Shown: one piece after another, positions 45,143-57,686 of the stretch
Position numbering within the stretch: position 1 is the stretch's first letter
Layout of the letters: each line of letters opens with the position of its first letter
Assembly: GCA_028687375.1 (NCBI GenBank)
Contig: JAQUAG010000003.1
Location: forward strand, 153,122 to 217,121
Length of the DNA: 64,000 bases
DNA from: Arcobacteraceae bacterium
GTDB taxonomy: Bacteria > Campylobacterota > Campylobacteria > Campylobacterales > Arcobacteraceae
Direction: 5' to 3'
Program-made: the position numbers and the translations under genes
The notes under the pieces: model-generated
Databases searched by the model: none
What the model saw: the letters and a program-made list of their open reading frames with translations, nothing else
What the model was told of the DNA's origin: nothing

Positions 45143-46096
45143 ATGTTTAGTTTTATCAAAAAGTTACAAGAGCTGCTAAGTAAAGCAAAGAAAAATAAGG
45201 GGTTATGGTTTACATCAATAAGTGTTCTATCAATAAGTGGAATTATTTTATTTATGTATATCATTCTAAATATGACAAATACTGTAAAAGAAGAGGTATA
45301 TGTGAGTATTACAAGCAGTTATTTTAAATCATTAGAAAATATCTTAAAAGATAAAAAACAAAAGTATATAGAGGTTTCAGAAGCGATACTTTCCAATACG
45401 AGAGTATTAGATGCAATGGGTCAAAATGATATGGTATTTTTAGATAAATATGCCACTACTATTAATGAATCTTACGCAAAAAATGAACTCAAAGCACTTT
45501 CTATAAGTTTTTTTCCTGCAACAGATACCACATCAATGGTACGAGATACAATAACATCTACAATGAGATCAAAATCTCAAATTTCAGGGTTAGAAGTACA
45601 ACAGGAAGGTGTTTTTATTACACTTATTCAACCCGTTACTGTTGGAGAAAATTTTTTAGGTCTAATTGAAATAAAGCAATCAGTTCACTCTATCAAAGAT
45701 GATTTTGAAGCAAATAATAATAGTTTTGTTTTTTTACTTGATAAAAAAATGTTAGTAAAACTTTCACTTCAAGCTAAAAGTGGAAGATATAAAGATGTAG
45801 TTAGTGACTATGTTGTTTATCAAGGTGCTTATAGTAGTAGATTTTATAGTAAAATTTCTGAAGCTGGTCCAGACCTTTTTGCTTATGAAAGAAGAATAGG
45901 ATATGGAGCTGATGATATTTACTTTAGAACCTATAAAAAAGCAACTGATATTAATGGTGCTGATGTGGGTCTTTATGTTATTGGTGAAGGTGTAGAAAAA
46001 AACAATGGATTTGTTAATATTGCAGAAAGTATGGTAAACTCAGTAACTTCAGCTGCACTTGGTCTTGTTATTTCTATCCTTCTATTTATGTTTTAG
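45143..46096 (+). CDS. Cache-like periplasmic sensor protein without an output domain
   Basis: First gene of the eight-gene cluster; no specific family recognised. The 317 residues have a basic N-terminus, a membrane helix at about 24-44, a ~250-residue periplasmic region and a second membrane helix at the extreme C-terminus (about 300-317, ending in LLFMF). The periplasmic part resembles double-Cache domains of chemoreceptors (long first helix, then ALSISFFPATDTTSMVRD, GVFITLIQPVTVGENFLGLIEIKQSV and SFVFLLDKKMLVKLS). The protein ends right after the second helix, so there is no HAMP, methyl-accepting, kinase or GGDEF part. It may pass ligand or envelope status to the channel protein encoded 8 bp downstream; that is inference. 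Confidence 0.7.
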   Translation: MFSFIKKLQELLSKAKKNKGLWFTSISVLSISGIILFMYIILNMTNTVKEEVYVSITSSYFKSLENILKDKKQKYIEVSEAILSNTRVLDAMGQNDMVFLDKYATTINESYAKNELKALSISFFPATDTTSMVRDTITSTMRSKSQISGLEVQQEGVFITLIQPVTVGENFLGLIEIKQSVHSIKDDFEANNNSFVFLLDKKMLVKLSLQAKSGRYKDVVSDYVVYQGAYSSRFYSKISEAGPDLFAYERRIGYGADDIYFRTYKKATDINGADVGLYVIGEGVEKNNGFVNIAESMVNSVTSAALGLVISILLFMF

Positions 46097-46104
46097 AGGG
46101 AAAA

Positions 46105-47229
46105 ATGAGAAGACTTAAACTTTTAAAAATCTATTTTGTATTTATACTCTTTATAGTATTCCTTACTGTATCAAATATTAAAGTTATATCATCTTATTTT
46201 ATGGCAACAGTAACTTTTAATAGTGCAATTGGTACAGTTTTTGTTATTGGACTTATTGTTATTATGCAATCGGCTATAAGACTTACAATGCTTGCTGGTA
46301 CTTTTGGAGTACTTTCTTATAAAAAGGGAGATGAACTTGAATTTTATCTAAGAGGTATAGGAAAATTAATGCCTGCAACTATTGCAAATATGTTTGAAAA
46401 AAGGGCTAAAAAAGGTGTTCTATACTTTACTAACGATGAAGCAAAAGATGTTGGTGAATGGCTCACTGAACAATTTTTCAATACAAAAGGTTATGTTGGA
46501 TTTTTCGTTGCCACTTCACTAATGATCGGACTTTTTGGTACATTTGCTGGTCTTTTAAAAGCTATTGATAATATGGGAGCAATTATCCTCTCTTTAGGTG
46601 GAGATATCAATATTGCTGAAGTTATGTCCCAATTCGCAGGTCCTCTTGGTGGGATGGCTATTGGATTTGCATCTTCATTATTTGGAGTTGCTTCTGCAAT
46701 CATATTAAACTTTTTACAATATATCCTTTCAAGACAACAAGCTGCATTTAGTGAAGATGTACAAGATTGGCTCAAAGGGAAACTAATAGAATCTCAATCA
46801 GCAGATGTTTTAGGTAAAATTAATACTTCAAATGAACAAATTAAATCAGGGGGAGTTGATACATCTAGTGTAGGAATGGGAACAACGGCATTTTTAGATA
46901 TTTTTGTTGATAAAATCAGTGAACTCTCTGCTAGTATTAACAAAGCAAATCAATCAAGTGAGCTATTTTTTAAACAAGTTGCTTTTGGATTAGAGGAATC
47001 AAATCTTGCAACCAAAAGGCAAGCTGCACTTTTTGAAGATATCTCTAAAAAATTACAGGAGCTAAACACGAGTCAATATTCAGGAACTGAATCTATGATA
47101 AGTTCAATAAATGCTGTCTCTGATGCTATTCTTAGTGAACATGCAACCCTTAAAAAAGTACTAACTGCTCAAGATGAATCAAATAAATCATTACAAGCAC
47201 TTGTACAAACTTACGCAAAAACAAAGTAG
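46105..47229 (+). CDS. MotA/TolQ/ExbB-family proton channel protein (SiiB-like)
   Basis: Predicted inner-membrane proton-channel subunit of 374 residues. Helices lie at about 9-28, 36-60, 130-153 and 181-206. The third and fourth carry the family core: LIGLFGTFAGLLKAI-type helix (LFGTFAG at 143-149) and GPLGGMAIGFASSLFGVASAI. A cytoplasmic region of ~165 residues follows with heptad-like helices, longer than in TolQ or ExbB. Paired with the MotB-like gene 12 bp downstream it should form a stator-like unit that turns proton flow into movement. In Salmonella, SiiB and SiiA form such a channel beside a type I secretion system for a giant adhesin; the TolC gene here suggests a similar link. Confidence 0.85.
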   Translation: MRRLKLLKIYFVFILFIVFLTVSNIKVISSYFMATVTFNSAIGTVFVIGLIVIMQSAIRLTMLAGTFGVLSYKKGDELEFYLRGIGKLMPATIANMFEKRAKKGVLYFTNDEAKDVGEWLTEQFFNTKGYVGFFVATSLMIGLFGTFAGLLKAIDNMGAIILSLGGDINIAEVMSQFAGPLGGMAIGFASSLFGVASAIILNFLQYILSRQQAAFSEDVQDWLKGKLIESQSADVLGKINTSNEQIKSGGVDTSSVGMGTTAFLDIFVDKISELSASINKANQSSELFFKQVAFGLEESNLATKRQAALFEDISKKLQELNTSQYSGTESMISSINAVSDAILSEHATLKKVLTAQDESNKSLQALVQTYAKTK

Positions 47230-47241
47230 GTAACAAGTTAA

Positions 47242-48012
47242 ATGGCTGTTAGATGTGAAGAAGAGTTTAATCCTTGGCCATCATTTGTAGATATATTCTC
47301 ATCTGTTATTCTTGTATTACTCTTATTTTTACTTGTAACAATCGTAAATATTGGTTACTATGCACAATTTAAATACAAAATACAATATACAGGTTCAATC
47401 ACTACTGATGATATTATTTTACAAGACAATACGAAAAAAGTTATTTTAGATGAAAAGAAAAAAGTGGAAGATGTCAACAAAGATCAAATAGTTCCAAAAG
47501 AGCTTATGATGCCAAAAACAGAGATGGAGATGATGAAAAAAATCGAGCAACAACAAAAACTCATCCAACAAATGCAACAGCAGATGCAGCAACAAGTACA
47601 AGCGGCAACAGATATTGAATCTGCAGGGGAAGATATGGCAGATAAAAAGAAAAAAGATGAAAAATCAAAACAAAAAATTTCACAAACAAGTAATATTTTT
47701 TATATAACTTACAATGCAAATGAATTATTTATAGATCAAGGGGTAACAGAAAAACTCAAAGTATTTATCCAAAAAATAAAAAGTGAAAATTCAAATAGTA
47801 ATTTTAATATCTATGGAACTGACCCGCTTGACCAAATAAGTTTAACTGTTACAAAACAAATAACATTAGGAAGAGCGATAAGTGTAAGAAATCTCTTACG
47901 AAAATTTCAAATTGATAAAAGTCAAGTAAAATTAAAACTATCAGAAAAACCTTCAATTCCAAGTGATATCAAAATAGACACTGGCGTAATTGTAGTAGAG
48001 GCGTTAAATTAA
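47242..48012 (+). CDS. MotB/SiiA-like channel partner with OmpA-like periplasmic domain
   Basis: Bitopic partner of the MotA/ExbB-like protein (256 residues). The short N-terminus leads into one membrane helix (15-38) that begins FVDIFSSVILVLL, with Asp17 in the place of the proton-binding Asp of MotB. A Met/Gln-rich, coiled linker (about 90-125) and a Lys/Asp-rich part follow. The C-terminal ~85 residues look like a divergent OmpA domain: FNIYGTDPLDQ in place of the GHTD loop and LGRAISVRNLLRKF matching the L-S-x-x-R-A-x-x-V-x-x-x-L helix. Peptidoglycan binding is plausible but the motif is degenerate. The stop shares one base with the TolC start (TAATG). Confidence 0.82.
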   Translation: MAVRCEEEFNPWPSFVDIFSSVILVLLLFLLVTIVNIGYYAQFKYKIQYTGSITTDDIILQDNTKKVILDEKKKVEDVNKDQIVPKELMMPKTEMEMMKKIEQQQKLIQQMQQQMQQQVQAATDIESAGEDMADKKKKDEKSKQKISQTSNIFYITYNANELFIDQGVTEKLKVFIQKIKSENSNSNFNIYGTDPLDQISLTVTKQITLGRAISVRNLLRKFQIDKSQVKLKLSEKPSIPSDIKIDTGVIVVEALN

Positions 48013-51000
48013 TGCAAAAATTTTTATCAACTTTTTTATCAACTTTATTGGTTTTTTTACCTACTCTTGCAAATGCTGAAGGTGCAGTAAAAATTGCAAA
48101 ATCAACAGATAAAACTGGCGAAAATAAAGATATGCCAAAACCAAAAAACATTGATAAAGAATATGGAAAAGAAGGGACACTCAACGAATCTAAATCTGCT
48201 TTGATCTCTGTTGACCCTTTAGCACTCCAAAACTATTCAAAAATATCAAATAATTTTGATTTTAGTACATATGACAAGGTCACTTTAAAAAGTGTTATCT
48301 TAGAAACACTCTCACAAAGTAACGATTTAAAAAGTGCAAACGAAAAAGTTATCCAAACAGAACTATCGTACAAAGAAGCATATGCAGGATATCTTCCAAC
48401 GGTTGATTTTCAATATAGTGTTAAAAAAACGCACAATCTTGAAACAGGTGATGATACAATCGATAAGCCTTATCACTCTGATTATAACGATGAGAGTTAT
48501 AAATTTACAATAAGACAATCTCTCTACACAGGTGGAGCTACAGAGTTTAAAGTAAAAAGTTTAAAATCAAAACTAGAAGAGGCAAAACGAAAGTACACAA
48601 TCGTTTTAGAAGAGGAGATTCAAAAAGCTATAAAAGCTTATTTTGGAGTACTATTTAGTCATAAGAGTGTTGTAGTTAATGAACGGAATATGGAAAAACT
48701 CAATAAAATTCTGGAAATCACTCAAATTAAATATGATAGTGGAGCATTATCGATTGGAGATTTGAGTGCAGTTAAAGCAAATATAGCAAATGCAAGTGGA
48801 AAACTTATACGAGTAAAATCTGACCTTGCTGATGCTATTGATTTTTATCTTTATACTGTTGGTGAAGATTTTACAAAAACAGCACCTTATGAGGAAAACT
48901 TCCCTATTAAGCTTACAACACTTGAAGCACTTTATGCAGATATTTTAGAAAATAATCTCAATCTTGTAAATTATAGACTTAATATCCAATCTACAAAAGA
49001 TAAGCTTTTAAATATGAAAGCTACATTTAAACCAAAAGTTGACCTTGAACTTAACTATGCAAATGTCCTTGATAAAGAGCAATTTACAGCAAATGAAGAG
49101 ACTTATAATGCAAAAGTTACATTAAATTATAATCTCTACAATGGTGGGAAAGATACAATTGCAGCGATGCAAGTTTTTAGTTCACTACAAGAATTAAACT
49201 ATAGATATAAAGAGGAGATTAAAAAACTTAAATGGGAGATATCAAAACTTTTTAACTCTATCAAATCACTTGATGAAACTCTTTCAAATACAAAAAAAGA
49301 GGTATCTGCTTCAGCTGAAATGGTAAACTCATATTGGGAAGGTTTCCAACTTGGGGAACAAGATTTACAAGTATTACTTCAAGGTCAAAGACAACTCAAT
49401 GGGGCTGAACTTGATTTGATTAAATATGAGCAAGACTATCTTACAAATGTATTTAAACTTTTAACATCAAAAGGGGAGCTTTCAAAATATTTCAATATAG
49501 ATGGTGGTCATCCTGATTTTATTGACTTTTCAAATACAACTGGTACTAAAACTCCTTTAAAAATTGACTTAACAAATACTATAAATAATACAAAAGATAT
49601 GAATAAAACAATAGAGCCAATAGCTACAAAAGATGAAAATCTAACGCAAGATGAGAATATAACTCATAATGACGAAAACGAGACAATCGGTGACTTAAAT
49701 ACTACTGTTGATGAATACCTTGAGGTTGTCAAGGAAGCTGGATTTGAAAATGTTGTAAACTTTAAAGATACATTTTTAGAAGCAAATGATGAAGATTATA
49801 CGATTGCAATTAGTGACTTTACAAACCATTATGATGCTTACACTTATGCGAAAAAGAATAGAATTCTCAACCAATCATTTAGCTATGAATATTTGAATAA
49901 AAATGGCGATTTTGAAAAAGTAAATACAAAAACTAAAGTTGTTGATGTTAAAACTAGTTTAGCATTTGGTATCTATAAATCGCAAGATGAAGCGATAAAA
50001 TCTGTTGATACTATTTTCGATAAAGGGGGGAAACTTTATAACATCGTCAAAGTAAAAGAGATAAAAGAGCTTTATAATGCTTATGTAAATGGTCTTGAAG
50101 CAAAAGTAGAACCTTTTATCGTTAAACCAAAAGTGGTAAAAACATTTATGACAAATCAAGAGTTTAAAAATAAATTTTTATCAGCTCCAAGTTCATACTA
50201 TAGCATCAATGTTATTTCACTCTCACAAATGGAACAAGCACAAAACCTTATCAAACAAGAAAATATTGAAAAAGACTCTTTTGTGTTTAGATATGGAAGA
50301 AATGGTATGTGGGTTAAAGTTATGTTTGGGGTTTTCTCTAGCTATGAACAAGCTATGAGTGAACTTAGTAAACATCCTGATATGATTGCAAAATATAGAC
50401 CAGTTATTGAAAAAATAGGACAAAAACAAGATACATACAATACTTATAAAGATTTCAATCCTACTCCACAATGGTATTTAGATGAACAAAAAGAGAAAAA
50501 AGAAAAGAAAGATTCAAAAGTAGCACCAAAAGCTGATGAGAAAAAAACAAACTCAAAAGAGGAAGTAGTTGTTGTATCACCAGAAGATATCACAATAGAG
50601 GAACCTTTAGCTTTAGATACAAATAAATCTATTGAAACAAAATCTGTAGAATTACCTAAAAAAGAGGAGATTACACAACCTCTTAGTAATGAAACTATTG
50701 TAAAAGAAGAAGAGCCAAAAGTAGAAAATATTGAAGCTTTACCACCACAATCTCAAATTTCTGAACCTACAAATGAAAATGAAGTAGTTCCAGAAATAAG
50801 TCCTACAGAAAAACCGAAAGTAGAATTAGTAGAAGAAAAATCGATTGCTCCAATAGAAAATAAAGAAGAAGTAAGAGATCCTATTGTTGAAACACCTATA
50901 GAAGAGTTACCAAAAGTGGAAGCTATAACTCCAAAAGTGAACGAAGCACCTTTAAAATCTAAAACTGAAATATTTAAACAAGAAAATTATCCATCATTTA

Positions 51001-52178
51001 CAGAAGCGTTTAATAATGCTCCAAAAGGATACTATACAATAGCCCTTGAAACCATACCAGATACACAAAGAGATCGATTTATACAACAATTCATTAGTGA
51101 TGATCAATTTACAGAGGTATCAAATAAAGGAAAAACACAAATTTATTATGGGATTTTTGAAAATATAGAAAAAGCAAGAGAACAAAAATTTAACCTTCAT
51201 CCACATTTAATTGCAGGGGTAAAATTATTTAAAATAGATAGAATTGACAAAAATATCCTCTCTATGCTAAAAGATAAAATAAAAACAGTGGATAAACCTA
51301 TGGTAGTACCTTCTGTAGAATTACCTAAAAAAGAGGAGATTACACAACCTCTTAGTAATGAAACTATTGTAAAAGAAGAAGAGCCAAAAGTAGAAAATAT
51401 TGAAGCTTTACCACCACAATCTCAAATTTCTGAACCTACAAATGAAAATGAAGTAGTTCCAGAAATAAGTCCTACAGAAAAACCGAAAGTAGAATTAGTA
51501 GAAGAAAAATCGATTGCTCCAATAGAAAATAAAGAAGAAGTAAGAGATCCTATTGTTGAAACACCTATAGAAGAGTTACCAAAAGTGGAAGCTATAACTC
51601 CAAAAGAGGAAAAAACTAAAACAGAAAGTATTAATCAAGAAATAACTATCCCTACAGTTAATACACCAACAAGCCAAAAGATTGAAGGAGAAGTAGTTCA
51701 AGAAAGAATCCAAGAAAAGACAGCTCCTATAGAAGAACCAAAAGTTAAAGTACAAGAAGAAGATATCGTTGCTCCAATAGAAAATAAAGAGGAAACAAAA
51801 GCTTTCAGAATAGAAACACCAGTTGAAGAGTTACCACAAGTTGAAATAGCAACTCCAACGATTAAAGAGCTACCATTAAAAACTGAACCTGAAACATTTA
51901 AAAAAGAAAATTATCCATCATTTACAGAAGCGTTTAAAAATGCTCCAAAAGAATACTATACAATAGCACTTGGGACAATACCAAATAACCAAAAAGATGC
52001 ATTTGTAAAAAGATTTATTATGGATGACCAATTTGCAGAAGTATCAAATAAAGGGAAAACACAAATTTATTATGGAATTTTTGAAAATATAGAAAAAGCG
52101 AGAGAACAGAAGGTTAACCTTCACCCTAAATTGGTTAATAGTGTAAAATTAATCAAAATTGAAAGAATCGCAAAATGA
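48012..52178 (+). CDS. TolC-family outer-membrane protein with four C-terminal SPOR-like domains
   Basis: At 1388 residues this is about three times the length of TolC. A signal peptide (cleavage near Ala22) and a TolC/OEP region (about 90-497: helices and strands such as GYLPTVDFQYSV, IRQSLYTGGATEFKVKSLKSK and YNLYNGGKD, twice-repeated design) come first. The rest is a long linker with four SPOR-like modules at about 593-692, 728-810, 1007-1078 and 1315-1388, separated by Glu/Pro/Lys-rich spacers. The last two modules are near copies, and the spacers before them include a perfect 295-bp DNA repeat. SPOR domains bind glycan strands lacking stem peptides, so the channel may be tied to septal peptidoglycan. 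The stop overlaps the next gene by 4 bp. The fusion is unusual; the substrate is unknown. Confidence 0.85.
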   Translation: MQKFLSTFLSTLLVFLPTLANAEGAVKIAKSTDKTGENKDMPKPKNIDKEYGKEGTLNESKSALISVDPLALQNYSKISNNFDFSTYDKVTLKSVILETLSQSNDLKSANEKVIQTELSYKEAYAGYLPTVDFQYSVKKTHNLETGDDTIDKPYHSDYNDESYKFTIRQSLYTGGATEFKVKSLKSKLEEAKRKYTIVLEEEIQKAIKAYFGVLFSHKSVVVNERNMEKLNKILEITQIKYDSGALSIGDLSAVKANIANASGKLIRVKSDLADAIDFYLYTVGEDFTKTAPYEENFPIKLTTLEALYADILENNLNLVNYRLNIQSTKDKLLNMKATFKPKVDLELNYANVLDKEQFTANEETYNAKVTLNYNLYNGGKDTIAAMQVFSSLQELNYRYKEEIKKLKWEISKLFNSIKSLDETLSNTKKEVSASAEMVNSYWEGFQLGEQDLQVLLQGQRQLNGAELDLIKYEQDYLTNVFKLLTSKGELSKYFNIDGGHPDFIDFSNTTGTKTPLKIDLTNTINNTKDMNKTIEPIATKDENLTQDENITHNDENETIGDLNTTVDEYLEVVKEAGFENVVNFKDTFLEANDEDYTIAISDFTNHYDAYTYAKKNRILNQSFSYEYLNKNGDFEKVNTKTKVVDVKTSLAFGIYKSQDEAIKSVDTIFDKGGKLYNIVKVKEIKELYNAYVNGLEAKVEPFIVKPKVVKTFMTNQEFKNKFLSAPSSYYSINVISLSQMEQAQNLIKQENIEKDSFVFRYGRNGMWVKVMFGVFSSYEQAMSELSKHPDMIAKYRPVIEKIGQKQDTYNTYKDFNPTPQWYLDEQKEKKEKKDSKVAPKADEKKTNSKEEVVVVSPEDITIEEPLALDTNKSIETKSVELPKKEEITQPLSNETIVKEEEPKVENIEALPPQSQISEPTNENEVVPEISPTEKPKVELVEEKSIAPIENKEEVRDPIVETPIEELPKVEAITPKVNEAPLKSKTEIFKQENYPSFTEAFNNAPKGYYTIALETIPDTQRDRFIQQFISDDQFTEVSNKGKTQIYYGIFENIEKAREQKFNLHPHLIAGVKLFKIDRIDKNILSMLKDKIKTVDKPMVVPSVELPKKEEITQPLSNETIVKEEEPKVENIEALPPQSQISEPTNENEVVPEISPTEKPKVELVEEKSIAPIENKEEVRDPIVETPIEELPKVEAITPKEEKTKTESINQEITIPTVNTPTSQKIEGEVVQERIQEKTAPIEEPKVKVQEEDIVAPIENKEETKAFRIETPVEELPQVEIATPTIKELPLKTEPETFKKENYPSFTEAFKNAPKEYYTIALGTIPNNQKDAFVKRFIMDDQFAEVSNKGKTQIYYGIFENIEKAREQKVNLHPKLVNSVKLIKIERIAK
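50643..50937 (+). repeat. 295-bp direct repeat, copy 1 (spacer of the TolC-SPOR gene)
   Basis: Identical base for base to 51312-51606 (offset 669 bp, in frame). It encodes the Glu/Pro-rich spacer beginning SVELPKKEEITQPL. Identity ends sharply on both sides (A/T mismatch before and T/A after). Confidence 0.95.
50982..51246 (+). repeat. imperfect direct repeat encoding SPOR module 3
   Basis: Aligns without gaps to 51906-52170 at an offset of 924 bp (308 codons). Both encode NYPSFTEAF, then YYTIAL and KGKTQIYYGIFENIEKAREQK; they differ at scattered positions, unlike the perfect spacer repeat. Confidence 0.88.
51312..51606 (+). repeat. 295-bp direct repeat, copy 2 (spacer of the TolC-SPOR gene)
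   Basis: Perfect second copy of 50643-50937. No silent changes at all, so the duplication is recent or kept identical by gene conversion, whereas the SPOR modules next to it have diverged. Confidence 0.95.
51906..52170 (+). repeat. imperfect direct repeat encoding SPOR module 4
   Basis: Gap-free partner of 50982-51246. It ends at the last codons of the gene, so module 4 is the protein's C-terminus. Confidence 0.88.
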
Positions 52179-54334
52179 TATATTTAAAATATTTTCTTGC
52201 TATTCTTTTTTTATATATTGGTATTCTTTTATCAATTATAATTCCATCATTTAACCATATAAAAGAAACACTTACAGAAAAACATCTCAAAGAGAATAAT
52301 CTTATTGTTGATAATTTTATGATAAAACTAGAACCCGTTCTCCTTGATCATGATTATAAGAAAATCAAGGAATATATGGGAAGTTTCGTAGCTTCAACTA
52401 TTGTTGATAGTCTTGATATAAAATACACAAATTATTACATCACAGTTAATAATCTTCTCCATAATTCAGATAATATCAAAACTAAAAACTGGGTATTAAA
52501 TGACGTAACTATGGATGCAAAGTATGGGAGGATAGAGAAGCTAGGGGATACTGCTTATAAGTTTGTACCAGATAAAGGGTACAGTTTTGTATCGGATATA
52601 GAGATAAAATTTCAAGCTTCAAATGATACTCAAATGGAAAACTCCATCTCAAGTATCAACTTTAGTTTACCAAAAATAACTATCAAGCCTAACGATATAG
52701 AAAAAGGTTTTTTTGATACAAATTTAGAAAAACTTATCAATGTAGAGAGAAAAACTATCAAAAAAAAGTTTTTTATCGATAATACAAATGAATATGCTGT
52801 TTTAAATTGTATTACAAATAATGCTCAATTAAAAACTGATATAGAAAACTCTCTTCTACTGATTTGGGAATATTACAGTTTAGTATTTTTATTTATTGTA
52901 TTAGTTGCTTTTGGTTCACATATTTATCTTCAAAAAACAACTTTTATCAAAACACTTCAAGAAGTAGATAGTTACCTGCAAGATATTTTAAATAACAATT
53001 TTCATAAATTTGCAGGGCTAGAAAAAATTAAGCAAAAAGAGATGCATACAATGGTTGGGAATATTGTTACTTTAACAAAAAGTATCTCCTCTTTAAGAAA
53101 TGAACTTACAAATAATAGAAATACTATTGAGATGAAAATCTCATCAGATCCACTCACAAAACTTCCAAATAAAAAGATTTTTGAACTTGATATGAAAACA
53201 CTATTTATTAGTGATACTAAAAGTTATATCACAAAACTTAAACTTGAAGTTTTAAAAACATTTTCAAAAGAAAATCGTGTTGAAAAAATTGATGAACTTA
53301 TACTTGATTTTGTCTCTTTTATCGACAGAACAGTCAAATCTACAAGCTACCACAATACAAAACTTTATAGACTTTATGGGTCAGAGTTTGTAATGATTAC
53401 AGAACATACAGACTATGACAAGATGTTGGAAATTTTTAATCTTATTGCTCACAATCAAGAAGATGTAAAACACAAATACAATTTAAAAGAAAATCTTTTT
53501 TATGCTGTCTCTATCCCTTTTGATAGATATGGAACTATTGACAAAACTTTAAATGATATGGAACAACTCTATAGTCAAACAATAGATAATGAAAAATTAT
53601 TTTATGTAGAAGAGTCGCAGAAACAAGATGAGAGTGCTCTTAAATTAGAAAAAATAGTAACAAGTATCATTGAAAATGATGCTTTTTCTCTCTCTTATAA
53701 ATTTGATACATTTTTATTTAGTGAGCCAGATAAAATTATTATGAAAGAGGTTTCACCAAATCTTCTAAATATTGATGGAACACCTATCCCAATTGCTACA
53801 TTTATCTCCGTTGCTGAACACTTAAGACTAGCAATTCAATTTGATAAACAATTGATTATCAAAACACTCAAATATGTGAAACAATATAAAATAGAATATG
53901 ATTTAGCTATCAATATCTCTATTAGTTCACTTAATGATACTTCATTTAATACTTGGCTTGAATCCCAACTTCTTTTTTATGATAAAGAAACTATCGATAG
54001 GATTGTATTTAGTGTTACCACTTTTGCTGTAAAAAATAATTATGATAAATTTGCAAAATTTATTAGTGATGTGAAGAATTTCAATGGTAGAATACTTTTA
54101 AAAAGATTCAGTTACAATGATTTAACACTCGCCCAATTGGAACATTTAGATTTAGATTTTATAAGGGTGCATAAAGACTACACAACAAATATTGATACAG
54201 ATAGAGGTGTGTTACTTAAAAATATTGCTAATTTTGCAGATATTCACGATATCCATCTTTTAGGTGATATGGTAAGTGCTGATAGAGATTATGAAGTTCT
54301 TAAAAAATTAAATTTTTATGCAACTTGTAGATAA
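52175..54334 (+). CDS. LapD-like membrane protein with degenerate GGDEF and EAL domains
   Basis: A 719-residue inner-membrane protein: helix 1 (4-24), a ~200-residue periplasmic region, helix 2 (about 228-250), a HAMP-like linker, a GGDEF-type domain from about 323 and an EAL-type domain from about 502. The GGDEF loop reads YGSEF (about 399-403). In the EAL domain the E-A-L, T-E, DDFGTG and AEGVE counterparts are replaced (SEPDKIIMKEV, VFSVTTFAV, LKRFSYNDL, LLGDMV), so neither synthesis nor hydrolysis of c-di-GMP is expected. This is the LapD pattern, in which c-di-GMP binding in the cytoplasm controls a periplasmic output. In LapD systems the output is the protease LapG; no LapG is seen here. 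Four-bp overlap with the TolC-SPOR gene. Confidence 0.82.
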   Translation: MIYLKYFLAILFLYIGILLSIIIPSFNHIKETLTEKHLKENNLIVDNFMIKLEPVLLDHDYKKIKEYMGSFVASTIVDSLDIKYTNYYITVNNLLHNSDNIKTKNWVLNDVTMDAKYGRIEKLGDTAYKFVPDKGYSFVSDIEIKFQASNDTQMENSISSINFSLPKITIKPNDIEKGFFDTNLEKLINVERKTIKKKFFIDNTNEYAVLNCITNNAQLKTDIENSLLLIWEYYSLVFLFIVLVAFGSHIYLQKTTFIKTLQEVDSYLQDILNNNFHKFAGLEKIKQKEMHTMVGNIVTLTKSISSLRNELTNNRNTIEMKISSDPLTKLPNKKIFELDMKTLFISDTKSYITKLKLEVLKTFSKENRVEKIDELILDFVSFIDRTVKSTSYHNTKLYRLYGSEFVMITEHTDYDKMLEIFNLIAHNQEDVKHKYNLKENLFYAVSIPFDRYGTIDKTLNDMEQLYSQTIDNEKLFYVEESQKQDESALKLEKIVTSIIENDAFSLSYKFDTFLFSEPDKIIMKEVSPNLLNIDGTPIPIATFISVAEHLRLAIQFDKQLIIKTLKYVKQYKIEYDLAINISISSLNDTSFNTWLESQLLFYDKETIDRIVFSVTTFAVKNNYDKFAKFISDVKNFNGRILLKRFSYNDLTLAQLEHLDLDFIRVHKDYTTNIDTDRGVLLKNIANFADIHDIHLLGDMVSADRDYEVLKKLNFYATCR

Positions 54335-54342
54335 GGATTTTT

Positions 54343-55758
54343 ATGTTTAAATATTTTTTTTATAGTTTTTTTATAGTTTTTATTTTTACAGGATGTAGTG
54401 ATACTCAAAAAAATCTCGATTATTCCACAAGAGAATACAATGGAATAAGTAAAGATGCTATTCTGAATGCAGCAAAAAGGGTAATTAAACTCTCCGATGA
54501 AGATTTTACAATCTCTTCAAAAAGAAACTCTATTAGTGTCATTCGAGCGATACCAAAAAATAAAGGTTTCACTATTGATATCAATATCAATGAACTTGAA
54601 CTCAATACTACAACTGAAGGTGAGAAAACAACGACTAAACTTATTTTAAAACAAAAAGATGATATTTTTTCAGATAATCAAAGAATTTTAAAAGGGAGTG
54701 TTCACACCCTTTTTTGGGATAGAGTAGATTATCTTTTAGGACTCAATAAAAGTTGGTATAGTTGTAGTAAATATAGATTACTTATGAATTTTGATGGATT
54801 CTTTTGTGATATGAAATACAATTCAAATATATATCCTAGTGAATATGATATGATAAAAGATACCACTATCGCAAAACCTGTTGTTTTAGTAGAAGAAAAT
54901 ATTAATCCTTCTCAAATCAATCTAACTTCAATGGATGGAATAGTATTACCATTTACAACTCCACCTAAAGAGAATGATGTAGTTATTGCTGATCTTAATA
55001 CTTCTGGTTTATTTGATTTAAAACAAAATGCAACCATTTCAAATGATATAAACGATACAAATCAATCAATAATTGATATTAATAGCACAGATAATAACAA
55101 CTCAAATACTTTTGTTCCAGATCTCAATAGTACAATTTTAGAATATATTGAAAAACCATTACCAGATGAGATAAAGATAAATGATCAAAATATTACTATC
55201 TTAGATAATAACCAATCAATCAATCATCAATTACCTGAAGTAAATCAAATGATAATAGTTGATAATACTAATGATATTATTGAAAAAGATTTGAATTCTA
55301 CAGAAAATCTTCCTATTCAAATAGATGATAGCAATAAATCTTTAGATTCAAAATTTGAAAATCAAGAAGATATAAAAGCACCTATAATAACTCCACAAGA
55401 ATCACAAATCGAATCAACTAAACCACCATTATCAAATTTTGGAAAGATATTTATGGAAAGTGATCCAAAAAATGATTACACGATAAATTTAGCTATTGCA
55501 TACACAAAAGAGCAATCAGATAAATTTATCAATGATAATAACATCAAAGATAATAGTTTTGCTATTGGTTTTGTAAATGATTCAGATAATAAATATTATA
55601 TTAAAATTATGTATGGTGTTTATAAATCAAAAGCCGATGCTTTAAAAGTACTTGAAAACTTTTCAAAAGAGCTTAAAGCAAATAAACCAACCGTGGAGAG
55701 TGTAGAAAAAAAACAAACTTTATTTAATAAAAAAGGTGAAGATTTAAGTGTTAACTAA
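54343..55758 (+). CDS. lipoprotein with C-terminal SPOR-like domain
   Basis: A 471-residue secreted lipoprotein: signal peptide with lipobox FTGC (Cys18), a ~150-residue N-terminal alpha/beta region (about 30-160, with KAAKRVIKLSDEDFTISS-like sequence, read NAAKRVIKLSDEDFTI), an Asn/Asp/Thr-rich low-complexity stretch (about 210-350), and a SPOR-like end (YTINLAIAYTKEQSDKF ... YYIKIMYGVYKSKADAL, about 378-455) that resembles the modules of the TolC gene. The N-terminal part is of the kind found in BamC/NlpB-like or DUF4136-like lipoproteins, but I cannot fix the family. Position 8 bp after the LapD-like gene places it in the operon. Confidence 0.78.
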   Translation: MFKYFFYSFFIVFIFTGCSDTQKNLDYSTREYNGISKDAILNAAKRVIKLSDEDFTISSKRNSISVIRAIPKNKGFTIDININELELNTTTEGEKTTTKLILKQKDDIFSDNQRILKGSVHTLFWDRVDYLLGLNKSWYSCSKYRLLMNFDGFFCDMKYNSNIYPSEYDMIKDTTIAKPVVLVEENINPSQINLTSMDGIVLPFTTPPKENDVVIADLNTSGLFDLKQNATISNDINDTNQSIIDINSTDNNNSNTFVPDLNSTILEYIEKPLPDEIKINDQNITILDNNQSINHQLPEVNQMIIVDNTNDIIEKDLNSTENLPIQIDDSNKSLDSKFENQEDIKAPIITPQESQIESTKPPLSNFGKIFMESDPKNDYTINLAIAYTKEQSDKFINDNNIKDNSFAIGFVNDSDNKYYIKIMYGVYKSKADALKVLENFSKELKANKPTVESVEKKQTLFNKKGEDLSVN

Positions 55759-55773
55759 TCCAAAAGAGTAATT

Positions 55774-56718
55774 ATGAAAAATATCTATAAATATATTTTT
55801 ATTATTTTATTACTATTAACTAACCTTTTTGGTGGAGCATTTGAAAATGCTATTAATCTTTATCAAAAAGGTTTATACAAAGAGGCATTTAGAAGTTTTG
55901 AAAGTTTAGCAAAAAATGGTAATTCAAATGCCCAATACAATCTAGGAATGATGTATTATAATGGTGTTGGAATAGAAAAGAATAAGATTTTAGCCTTTGT
56001 ATGGCTTTCTCATGCTTCTAATAATGGGAATAAACTTGCACAAAATAAACTAGGATATATGTATGAAAAGGGGGAAGTAAAAGGGACGAAAGATCAAGAA
56101 AAAGCACTCAATGAATACCTCAAATCTGCCCTACAAAACTATAATATTGCACAACTTAATCTTGCTATGAAATATAGTGAAAATCCAACTGAAGAAAATC
56201 TCAAGATAGCATTCTTTTGGTATCAAAAAGCAGCTGCAAATAATAATACTGCCGCTATGAATAATCTAGCTCATATGTACTACTATGGACAAAGTGTCTC
56301 CAAAAATCTCAAAAAAGCTTTTGATTTATATTTCACAGCTGCATCATATGGAGATAGTGTTGCCCAATATAATCTTGCTATGATGTATTATGGTGGTGAA
56401 TATGTTAAAAGAGATGAAAAAGAAGCTCTTATCTGGCTTAACTTTTCAGCTCAATCAGGATATCCAATGGCACAAGTGAGACTTGGAAATTTTTATAAAG
56501 AGGGAGTCATTACCAAACAAGATTATCAAAAAGCTGTTTATTGGTTCAATGAAGCTGCACAGCAAAATGACCCACCTGGACAATACTATTTGGGAGTTTC
56601 TTATTACTATGGATTGGGAGTTGAAAGAAATCTACCAAAAGCAAAACATTGGCTGGAGATGTCAGCTGCAAGTAAATACAATGGTGCTATATCATTTCTT
56701 CAAAGAAATAAGTTTTAA
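55774..56718 (+). CDS. periplasmic Sel1-repeat (tetratricopeptide-like) protein
   Basis: Signal peptide (residues 1-22, YIFIILLLLTNLFGGA) followed by seven Sel1-type repeats of about 36 residues. Each has the A-x-x-N/L-L-G-x-M-Y-x-x-G core, e.g. NAQYNLGMMYYNGVGIEKN, SVAQYNLAMMYYGGEYVKR and PPGQYYLGVSYYYGLGVER; the third repeat lacks the glycine loop. Sel1 proteins are protein-interaction scaffolds, so this could tie together the periplasmic parts of the cluster's products. It is 15 bp after the lipoprotein gene and 8 bp before the aminotransferase-like gene. Confidence 0.87.
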   Translation: MKNIYKYIFIILLLLTNLFGGAFENAINLYQKGLYKEAFRSFESLAKNGNSNAQYNLGMMYYNGVGIEKNKILAFVWLSHASNNGNKLAQNKLGYMYEKGEVKGTKDQEKALNEYLKSALQNYNIAQLNLAMKYSENPTEENLKIAFFWYQKAAANNNTAAMNNLAHMYYYGQSVSKNLKKAFDLYFTAASYGDSVAQYNLAMMYYGGEYVKRDEKEALIWLNFSAQSGYPMAQVRLGNFYKEGVITKQDYQKAVYWFNEAAQQNDPPGQYYLGVSYYYGLGVERNLPKAKHWLEMSAASKYNGAISFLQRNKF

Positions 56719-56726
56719 TATCTACG

Positions 56727-57686
56727 ATGGATAAAACAATTGATTTTTCAAAAACTATACACTTTGTAAAACCAAATGTTGATTTTGATTTAAATGATTT
56801 TGAGCTATTAAATAGTTTAAAATATGATTTTTTTTATGAAACTATAGCTAAGTTCTATAGTATCAAAAAAAATGAGATTGAACTTTTCAATAGTCAAAGC
56901 AGTGCTATATTTTCACTATTACGGTATCTTCATTTAGAAAAATGTTATCTCTATTCCCCTATCTACCAAGAATATAAAAGAGCCGCTATAGCTTTTGGAT
57001 ACGATATTACTTTTATTAATAGATTTGAAAATATAGAAGAAGAGATACAAAAAGATAGTTTGGTTATTTTTGCTAATCCTTCATATCCAGATGGGAAGTA
57101 CTATGATATAGCCAATTATTTTGCAAAATGGACAAAAGCAAATGCAACCATAATTATAGATGAATCTTTTTTGGACTTTACAAATGAAAAAAGTGCTATA
57201 GATTATCTAAAATGCTATCCAAAACTTTATATTATAAAATCTTTTGCCCATTTCTATGGTATTTCACATCTTAAAATATCAGCTATTCTCTCAAATAAAG
57301 TATCGGTACAAAAACTAAAACAAAAAGAACCTCTTGATAAAATATCACTAGTTGATATACATTATATTTGTGAGGCTTTAAAAGATAAAAATTTCAAGAA
57401 AATTGGAAAAGCATTAGCTTCAAAGAACAATATTTTATTAGAGCAACTACTTCAAAAATCTAATTTTTTTGAAAAGATTTATCCAAGTAGCACTAATTTA
57501 ATTTTAGCAAAATTATCAAAATTAAAAGCGATACAACTACAAGAGCTATTTATAAAACATAAAATTTTTATTCAAAACTATGCACATTTTGATAGTTTAG
57601 ATGAAAGTTATCTAGGATTTTGTGTTCAAAATACAAAAGATTTAGAACTCCTAGAGAAGATATTAAAAGAGTTACCTAAGTATTGA
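56727..57686 (+). CDS. aminotransferase class I/II-fold protein lacking the PLP lysine (HisC/CobD-like)
   Basis: A 319-residue PLP fold-type I protein of HisC/CobD type. The NPxxPxG-type loop (ANPSYPDGKYYD) and the Asp that contacts the pyridine nitrogen (IIIDESFLDF) are present. In the segment that normally reads S-F/L-S/T-K-x-x-G-x-x-G-L-R, the sequence is KSFAHFYGISHLKIS: the Lys that forms the Schiff base is His (codon CAT) and the G-L-R becomes H-L-K. The frame is intact, so this is a substitution and not a frameshift. It is either a non-catalytic relative or uses PLP differently. Last gene of the plus-strand run; it overlaps the convergent gene by 15 bp. Confidence 0.78.
   Translation: MDKTIDFSKTIHFVKPNVDFDLNDFELLNSLKYDFFYETIAKFYSIKKNEIELFNSQSSAIFSLLRYLHLEKCYLYSPIYQEYKRAAIAFGYDITFINRFENIEEEIQKDSLVIFANPSYPDGKYYDIANYFAKWTKANATIIIDESFLDFTNEKSAIDYLKCYPKLYIIKSFAHFYGISHLKISAILSNKVSVQKLKQKEPLDKISLVDIHYICEALKDKNFKKIGKALASKNNILLEQLLQKSNFFEKIYPSSTNLILAKLSKLKAIQLQELFIKHKIFIQNYAHFDSLDESYLGFCVQNTKDLELLEKILKELPKY

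Follow-up and report, generated by a model that had tools for sequence, protein, structure and literature searches.

Architecture of the gene cluster

Eight plus-strand open reading frames (ORFs), separated by gaps of 8, 12, −1, −4, 8, 15 and 8 bp, were confirmed (Table 1) in the window, by which we mean the whole stretch of 64,000 nucleotides analysed here (G000:C48:153122-217121, from a genome assembled in 51 contigs). A sequence-only reading of this DNA had described all eight as one operon-like unit. The conserved gene order upholds this for genes 1–7 (45143-56718, plus strand, internal gaps of −4 to 15 bp), which occur in identical order across many Campylobacterota genomes, an arrangement beyond chance. 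It does not do so for the CobC-like gene 8, which does not adjoin the module in relatives, and the module is therefore taken to comprise seven genes. Upstream, 210 bp separate gene 1 from a divergent ferredoxin-like gene. A promoter and terminator scan of the cluster yielded nothing above chance, and a plasmid search gave no match.

Table 1. Genes of the cluster and the matches on which their assignment is based (positions within the window)
Gene	Assignment	Position	Strand	Basis
1	Cache-type periplasmic sensor	45143..46096	+	PF14827 (dCache_3), weak, E 2e-4, below cut-off
2	SiiB/MotA/ExbB-like channel subunit	46105..47229	+	Weak ZorA match, E 7e-4; 4 predicted transmembrane (TM) helices
3	SiiA/MotB-like subunit	47242..48012	+	One TM helix, linker, OmpA/SiiA-like peptidoglycan-binding-type domain (about 145-256)
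4	TolC-family outer-membrane channel with SPOR	48012..52178	+	PF02321 2.7e-39; SPOR 1.1e-5; TIGR01844 1.7e-46, below cut-off
5	LapD-derived receptor, degenerate GGDEF-EAL	52175..54334	+	Best PDB match LapD 3pjw, E 8e-29
6	Lipoprotein, weak C-terminal SPOR-like segment	54343..55758	+	SPOR E 0.097, below cut-off; lipobox-like FTGC by eye
7	Sel1-repeat protein, apparent signal peptide	55774..56718	+	PF08238 7.8e-56, 7 repeats
8	CobC-like, CobD/HisC-type aminotransferase	56727-57686	+	Outside the conserved module

The Cache protein carries one TM helix at each end (residues 24-42 and 297-315) and no cytoplasmic output domain; its C-terminal helix (ALGLVISILLFMF) is strongly conserved in an alignment with 15 relatives (A5). 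The TolC-family protein, which scores 135 bits against PF02321 (cut-off 22), bears a long Pro/Glu-rich periplasmic extension with one Pfam SPOR domain and, by eye, further SPOR-like segments. Its gene contains an exact 295-bp direct repeat (window positions 50643-50937 and 51312-51606, an offset of +669) that duplicates the Pro/Glu-rich linker, possibly a recent expansion or an assembly-sensitive site. The lipoprotein and Sel1-repeat genes are both syntenic in relatives, the latter as the conserved last gene of the module. Another gene of ~270 codons, HDOD-like by eye, recurs beside or within the module in relatives (L042, L046, L153, L155, L160 and L162). The locus is also carried, with 88% protein identity to the Arcobacteraceae-type gene studied here, by a sequence titled as a Helicobacter pylori PMSS1 metagenome-assembled genome (CAMCYD010000025.1, L013), a label that looks wrong.

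The exporter half and the giant substrate

The sequence-only reading had suggested that the cluster might be one half of a system, supplying regulation and energy to an exporter encoded elsewhere, and this was supported: the exporter and the end of its substrate are found on another contig, and the parts are contiguous in relatives. An LssB-type ABC exporter is encoded at G000:C15:38627-40684 (TIGR03375, 696.7 bits against a cut-off of 693.1, the single match above cut-off in the genome), adjoined by an HlyD adaptor gene (TIGR01843, 9e-101, over cut-off) and a TPR/methyltransferase (TPR-MT) gene; no TolC gene was found beside ABC and HlyD on this contig. With ABC and HlyD on C15 and genes 1–7 on C48, the locus is split in our genome, so that linkage in the strain itself rests on relatives. 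There, the gene order is giant ORF, TPR-MT, ABC, HlyD, Cache, MotA-like, MotB-like, TolC, LapD-like, lipoprotein and Sel1, contiguous in G009, G012, G017, G025, G029 and G034, the last three genes being counted only where the fetched stretch extended to them; in G029 the stretch stops inside TPR-MT, and the N-terminal module of the giant protein lies on another contig. The same layout was found in G367 and G416, and a variant layout in G359, G351, G169 and G371.

The MotA-like gene is present in 16 of 60 relatives and in 29 of 397 genomes sampled across the phylum. The cognate ABC gene likewise occurs in 16 of the 60, with identities of 47-100%, well separated from a group at 32-37%, and 15 of the 16 on each side are common to both (Fisher 4.7e-12), the exceptions being two fragmented assemblies, G033 and G052. 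The comparison of neighbourhoods across Campylobacterota, which the sequence-only reading had put forward as a check, thus found genes 1–7 co-occurring and linked to ABC, HlyD and the giant protein. In G042, G052, G286 and three f20 genomes (G188, G249 and G285), the stretch that was read contains the Cache and channel genes but no LapD-like gene; most of these genomes also carry the giant N-terminal module and TolC. LapD-like, lipoprotein and Sel1 genes therefore appear to be a layer added onto the core.

These linkages bear on another proposal of the sequence-only reading, namely that the genes build no exporter but a stand-alone envelope structure around TolC, with its anchor in septal peptidoglycan. 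Such a structure would fit the SPOR domain on TolC, the weak one on the lipoprotein and the Sel1 protein, as well as the separation of the exporter from these genes in our assembly. However, exporter and giant substrate are contiguous and co-occur with these genes in many relatives, which makes a septal structure very improbable.

The ORF upstream of TPR-MT in relatives encodes an RTX-type giant protein (PF00353) with a common C-terminal segment, in open frames of up to 13,090 codons (G009, a one-contig genome), followed by 12,331 and 11,227. Its N-terminal module was found once each in 12 of the 60 genomes; all 12 have the MotA-like gene, and the module is absent from all 44 genomes that lack this gene. 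In our genome, contig C15 opens with the last 16 codons of the giant gene, which encode TGDYDLGNTTLHIEIV up to the stop; they agree with the C-terminal end of the giant protein of G006 (TGDYDLGNTTLHIDIV), and the giant gene has therefore been cut by the assembly. A SapC gene follows the giant's end on C15, as in G006. The N-terminal module was not found in our assembly, in which only those last 16 codons are assembled. The giant protein is probably an adhesin, and we regard the identity of the components and their linkage with exporter and giant protein as highly probable.

Three further observations concern giant proteins and their surroundings. A 6,814-codon repetitive, RTX-like ORF on the window's own contig (G000:C48:64690-85134; L113, L114) was considered as the substrate and rejected; it has its own ABC, HlyD and TolC genes, extending to about 89.6 kb, and no strong C-terminal match. 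By eye it resembles type I-secreted surface-layer proteins, and a stretch nearby is masked with N. An FkbM-family methyltransferase gene lies between TPR-MT and the giant gene at L044:18749-19579 (tested) and, similar by eye, at L092:13898-14728, which suggests glycan modification of the giant substrate. A second SapC gene is located away from the giant locus, at G000:C31:21207-21857.

A probable SiiA/SiiB-like channel pair

Weak sequence matches together with topology point to a MotA-like identity for the gene 2 product. It has a C-terminal coiled-coil-like tail, does not match Pfam MotA_ExbB, and aligned with the ExbB/TolQ set of the same genome over the GLFGT region (hhalign, probability 78%, E 1.8e-5). 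In the MotB-like partner, Asp17 within the single TM helix is invariant in 16 of 16 relatives (alignment A3). Profiles of either subunit returned no useful match in a PDB sequence search, and no significant match emerged when the MotB-like set was compared by profile with the genome's own ExbD/TolR or flagellar MotB. Structure prediction was more informative. The AF2 model of the MotB-like protein has a mean pLDDT of 69.6, the folded part (145-256) averaging above 80, and SiiA (6qvp) occupied Foldseek ranks 1-5, with target TM scores of 0.78-0.83. VIA superimposed the modelled periplasmic domain on 6qvp over 97 residues at 1.9 A (Z 13.6; next entry 11.4), placing it closer to SiiA than to MotB. 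The domain is thus predicted, on models, to adopt a SiiA fold, strengthening the SiiA/SiiB comparison drawn in the sequence-only reading.

The pair belongs to the same channel superfamily as flagellar MotAB and the housekeeping ExbBD/TolQR systems, and the sequence-only reading had itself raised the objection that it might simply be the flagellar MotAB of the strain. The flagellar genes, however, are separate (G000:C48, about 124.6-126.1 kb), as are three ExbBD/TolQR-type pairs, and the periplasmic domain is nearest SiiA, above MotB; a flagellar or housekeeping identity can be practically dismissed. SiiAB is reported in reviews to be a proton channel that affects SiiE retention by a mechanism described as unclear (PMC12607715, PMC6272769). 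A SiiAB-like role of the pair described here is probable, and presumably it conducts or uses protons.

Among the MotA-like relatives, some have frames of 700-800 codons whose long C-terminal tails recall those of ZorA (L049, L156, L157 and L161). Elsewhere in our genome, at L002 (G000:C23), an ExbB/ExbD-type pair stands, by eye, beside an OmpA-like lipoprotein and a FecR-like protein, possibly a further envelope energising unit.

A LapD-derived receptor and the question of LapG

The degenerate GGDEF-EAL protein is nearest LapD (3pjw) by profile, and the AF2 model of its output region aligned with the LapD orthologue CdgS9 (4u64) over 131 of 131 residues (Z 11.6; next 7.5), which on models indicates a LapD output fold. 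Both findings favour a canonical c-di-GMP/LapD/LapG switch, in which the receptor would sequester an adhesin-clipping periplasmic protease and the channel pair would be incidental, and so does the presence of LapG in 12 of the 16 system-bearing relatives. Against this, LapG is absent from four system-bearing genomes: no LapG (BTLCP) was found in our genome at E<=1, and G019, G042 and G052, which carry the MotA-like gene, lack LapG too. Binding of LapG requires the tryptophan of the GW loop (PMC3032553, PMC4359373), and at the aligned output-domain column GW is retained in 6 of 6 canonical LapDs of the phylum but in 0 of 17 window-type proteins. The full GWxQ was dropped as a test motif, since the Q is missing from canonical LapDs of the phylum as well, and the aligned GW was used instead. 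An [ATP]AAG cleavage site was found in none of 12 giant N-terminal modules of relatives (first 300 residues), the one positive control being the canonical adhesin of G006, which has AAAG.

In G006, the one genome looked at in this respect, LapG sits in a separate canonical Lap locus (L118, G006:C13) comprising LapD, two LapG-type proteins, TolC, ABC, HlyD and the AAAG adhesin. The canonical locus and the window-type system thus coexist in one genus, while our genome has no LapG, nor was a second LapB-type ABC of this group found in it. Pfam LapD_MoxY_N is present in the canonical LapD of G006 and absent from the two window-type proteins tested. Lacking LapG, docking motif and cleavage-site motif, the LapG-based switch was rejected: a standard LapD/LapG circuit was not supported, and we consider it improbable for this system.

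An inserted stretch within the output domain was also considered as a special feature and set aside; PF16448 matches the canonical LapD of G006 in two stretches too, suggesting that this protein also has an insertion. The residue equivalent to LapD R450 is replaced in 11 of 11 proteins, so that c-di-GMP binding may have been lost, although the E617 equivalent remains acidic (D or E in 11 of 11).

A related alternative is that the receptor works through another protease, with the SiiAB-like pair energising or controlling export. Our protease search covered BTLCP/LapG, and Desulfovibrio vulgaris demonstrates that strong divergence of Lap regulators is possible (PMC13090378); yet no recurring protease gene was seen among the annotated genes of the conserved module, and we judge this alternative unlikely, if less so than the canonical switch. 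On balance, LapG-independent signalling by the LapD-derived receptor is the somewhat favoured interpretation.

Proposed mechanism

We conclude, with a probability of about 0.72, that a giant RTX-type surface protein is exported by a type I secretion system, of which the seven genes encode the outer-membrane, energising and regulating part. Sequence comparison supports the components, their linkage and co-occurrence and the loss of LapG features. In the mechanism that we propose, the giant protein would leave through the ABC/HlyD/TolC channel with its C-terminus leading, and its N-terminal module would remain in the envelope, acting as a plug. Drawing on the proton gradient, the peptidoglycan-anchored SiiA/SiiB-type pair would govern whether the giant protein is retained or released, in line with what has been proposed for SiiAB and SiiE. 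For the Cache protein, which lacks an output domain, we tentatively suggest gating of the channel via the conserved TM helix; this is, if anything, the less probable case. The LapD-derived receptor, its LapG docking lost, would probably relay a cytoplasmic signal (c-di-GMP, if still bound) to the channel, TolC or the plug and not to a protease, and the probable role of the SPOR and Sel1 parts is to hold the assembly in place in the periplasm. The sequence-only reading had labelled the machine c-di-GMP-gated and proton-driven, properties that we, too, only infer. In its fullest form, the model is a protease-free, reversible switch joining Lap and Sii logics, in which a rewired LapD-family receptor would signal via the periplasm to a SiiAB-type channel, with the Cache protein as co-sensor, and this channel would hold a megadalton-scale adhesin, or let it go, by mechanical means; we offer this as a plausible conjecture, falling somewhat short of even odds.

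Comparison with known systems

A search of the open-access literature, which is weak evidence on this point, did not find the combination of a SiiAB-type channel with a LapD-derived receptor without LapG docking. Like the Salmonella SPI-4 SiiABCDEF system, the one described here has an ABC exporter with a C39-like N-domain, an adaptor, a TolC-type channel, a giant surface protein and a MotA/MotB-like pair whose periplasmic domain has a modelled SiiA fold. Unlike SiiE (595 kDa), the substrate is of RTX type and can be much longer, and single frames of up to 13,090 codons are very large even among bacterial adhesins. The Cache sensor, LapD-derived receptor, SPOR-extended TolC, lipoprotein, Sel1 and TPR/methyltransferase proteins are additions to the Salmonella set, and the system belongs to Campylobacterota. 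A SiiAB-type pair fixed beside a giant-protein exporter outside Salmonella provides an independent comparative system for the control of SiiE by SiiAB.

With Pseudomonas Lap and its orthologues (Legionella CdgS9/LapG), the system shares a LapB/LssB-type ABC, a TolC-type channel and a LapD-like receptor with degenerate GGDEF-EAL and LapD output fold, but in place of LapG, GW docking and the [ATP]AAG site it has a SiiAB-type channel and a Cache protein. This suggests that a LapD-type receptor is able to act on another target once its protease has been lost, a changed form of inside-out signalling. In Desulfovibrio DvhA/DvhG/DvhD, too, the regulation of a giant adhesin secreted by the type I route has diverged, but DvhD is an HD-GYP protein that works with a BTLCP protease (PMC13090378, the main text of which does not mention MotA, OmpA or SiiA). 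Finally, the ZorAB, ExbBD, MotAB and TolQR units belong to the same channel superfamily, and the genomic context of the pair described here is giant-protein secretion.
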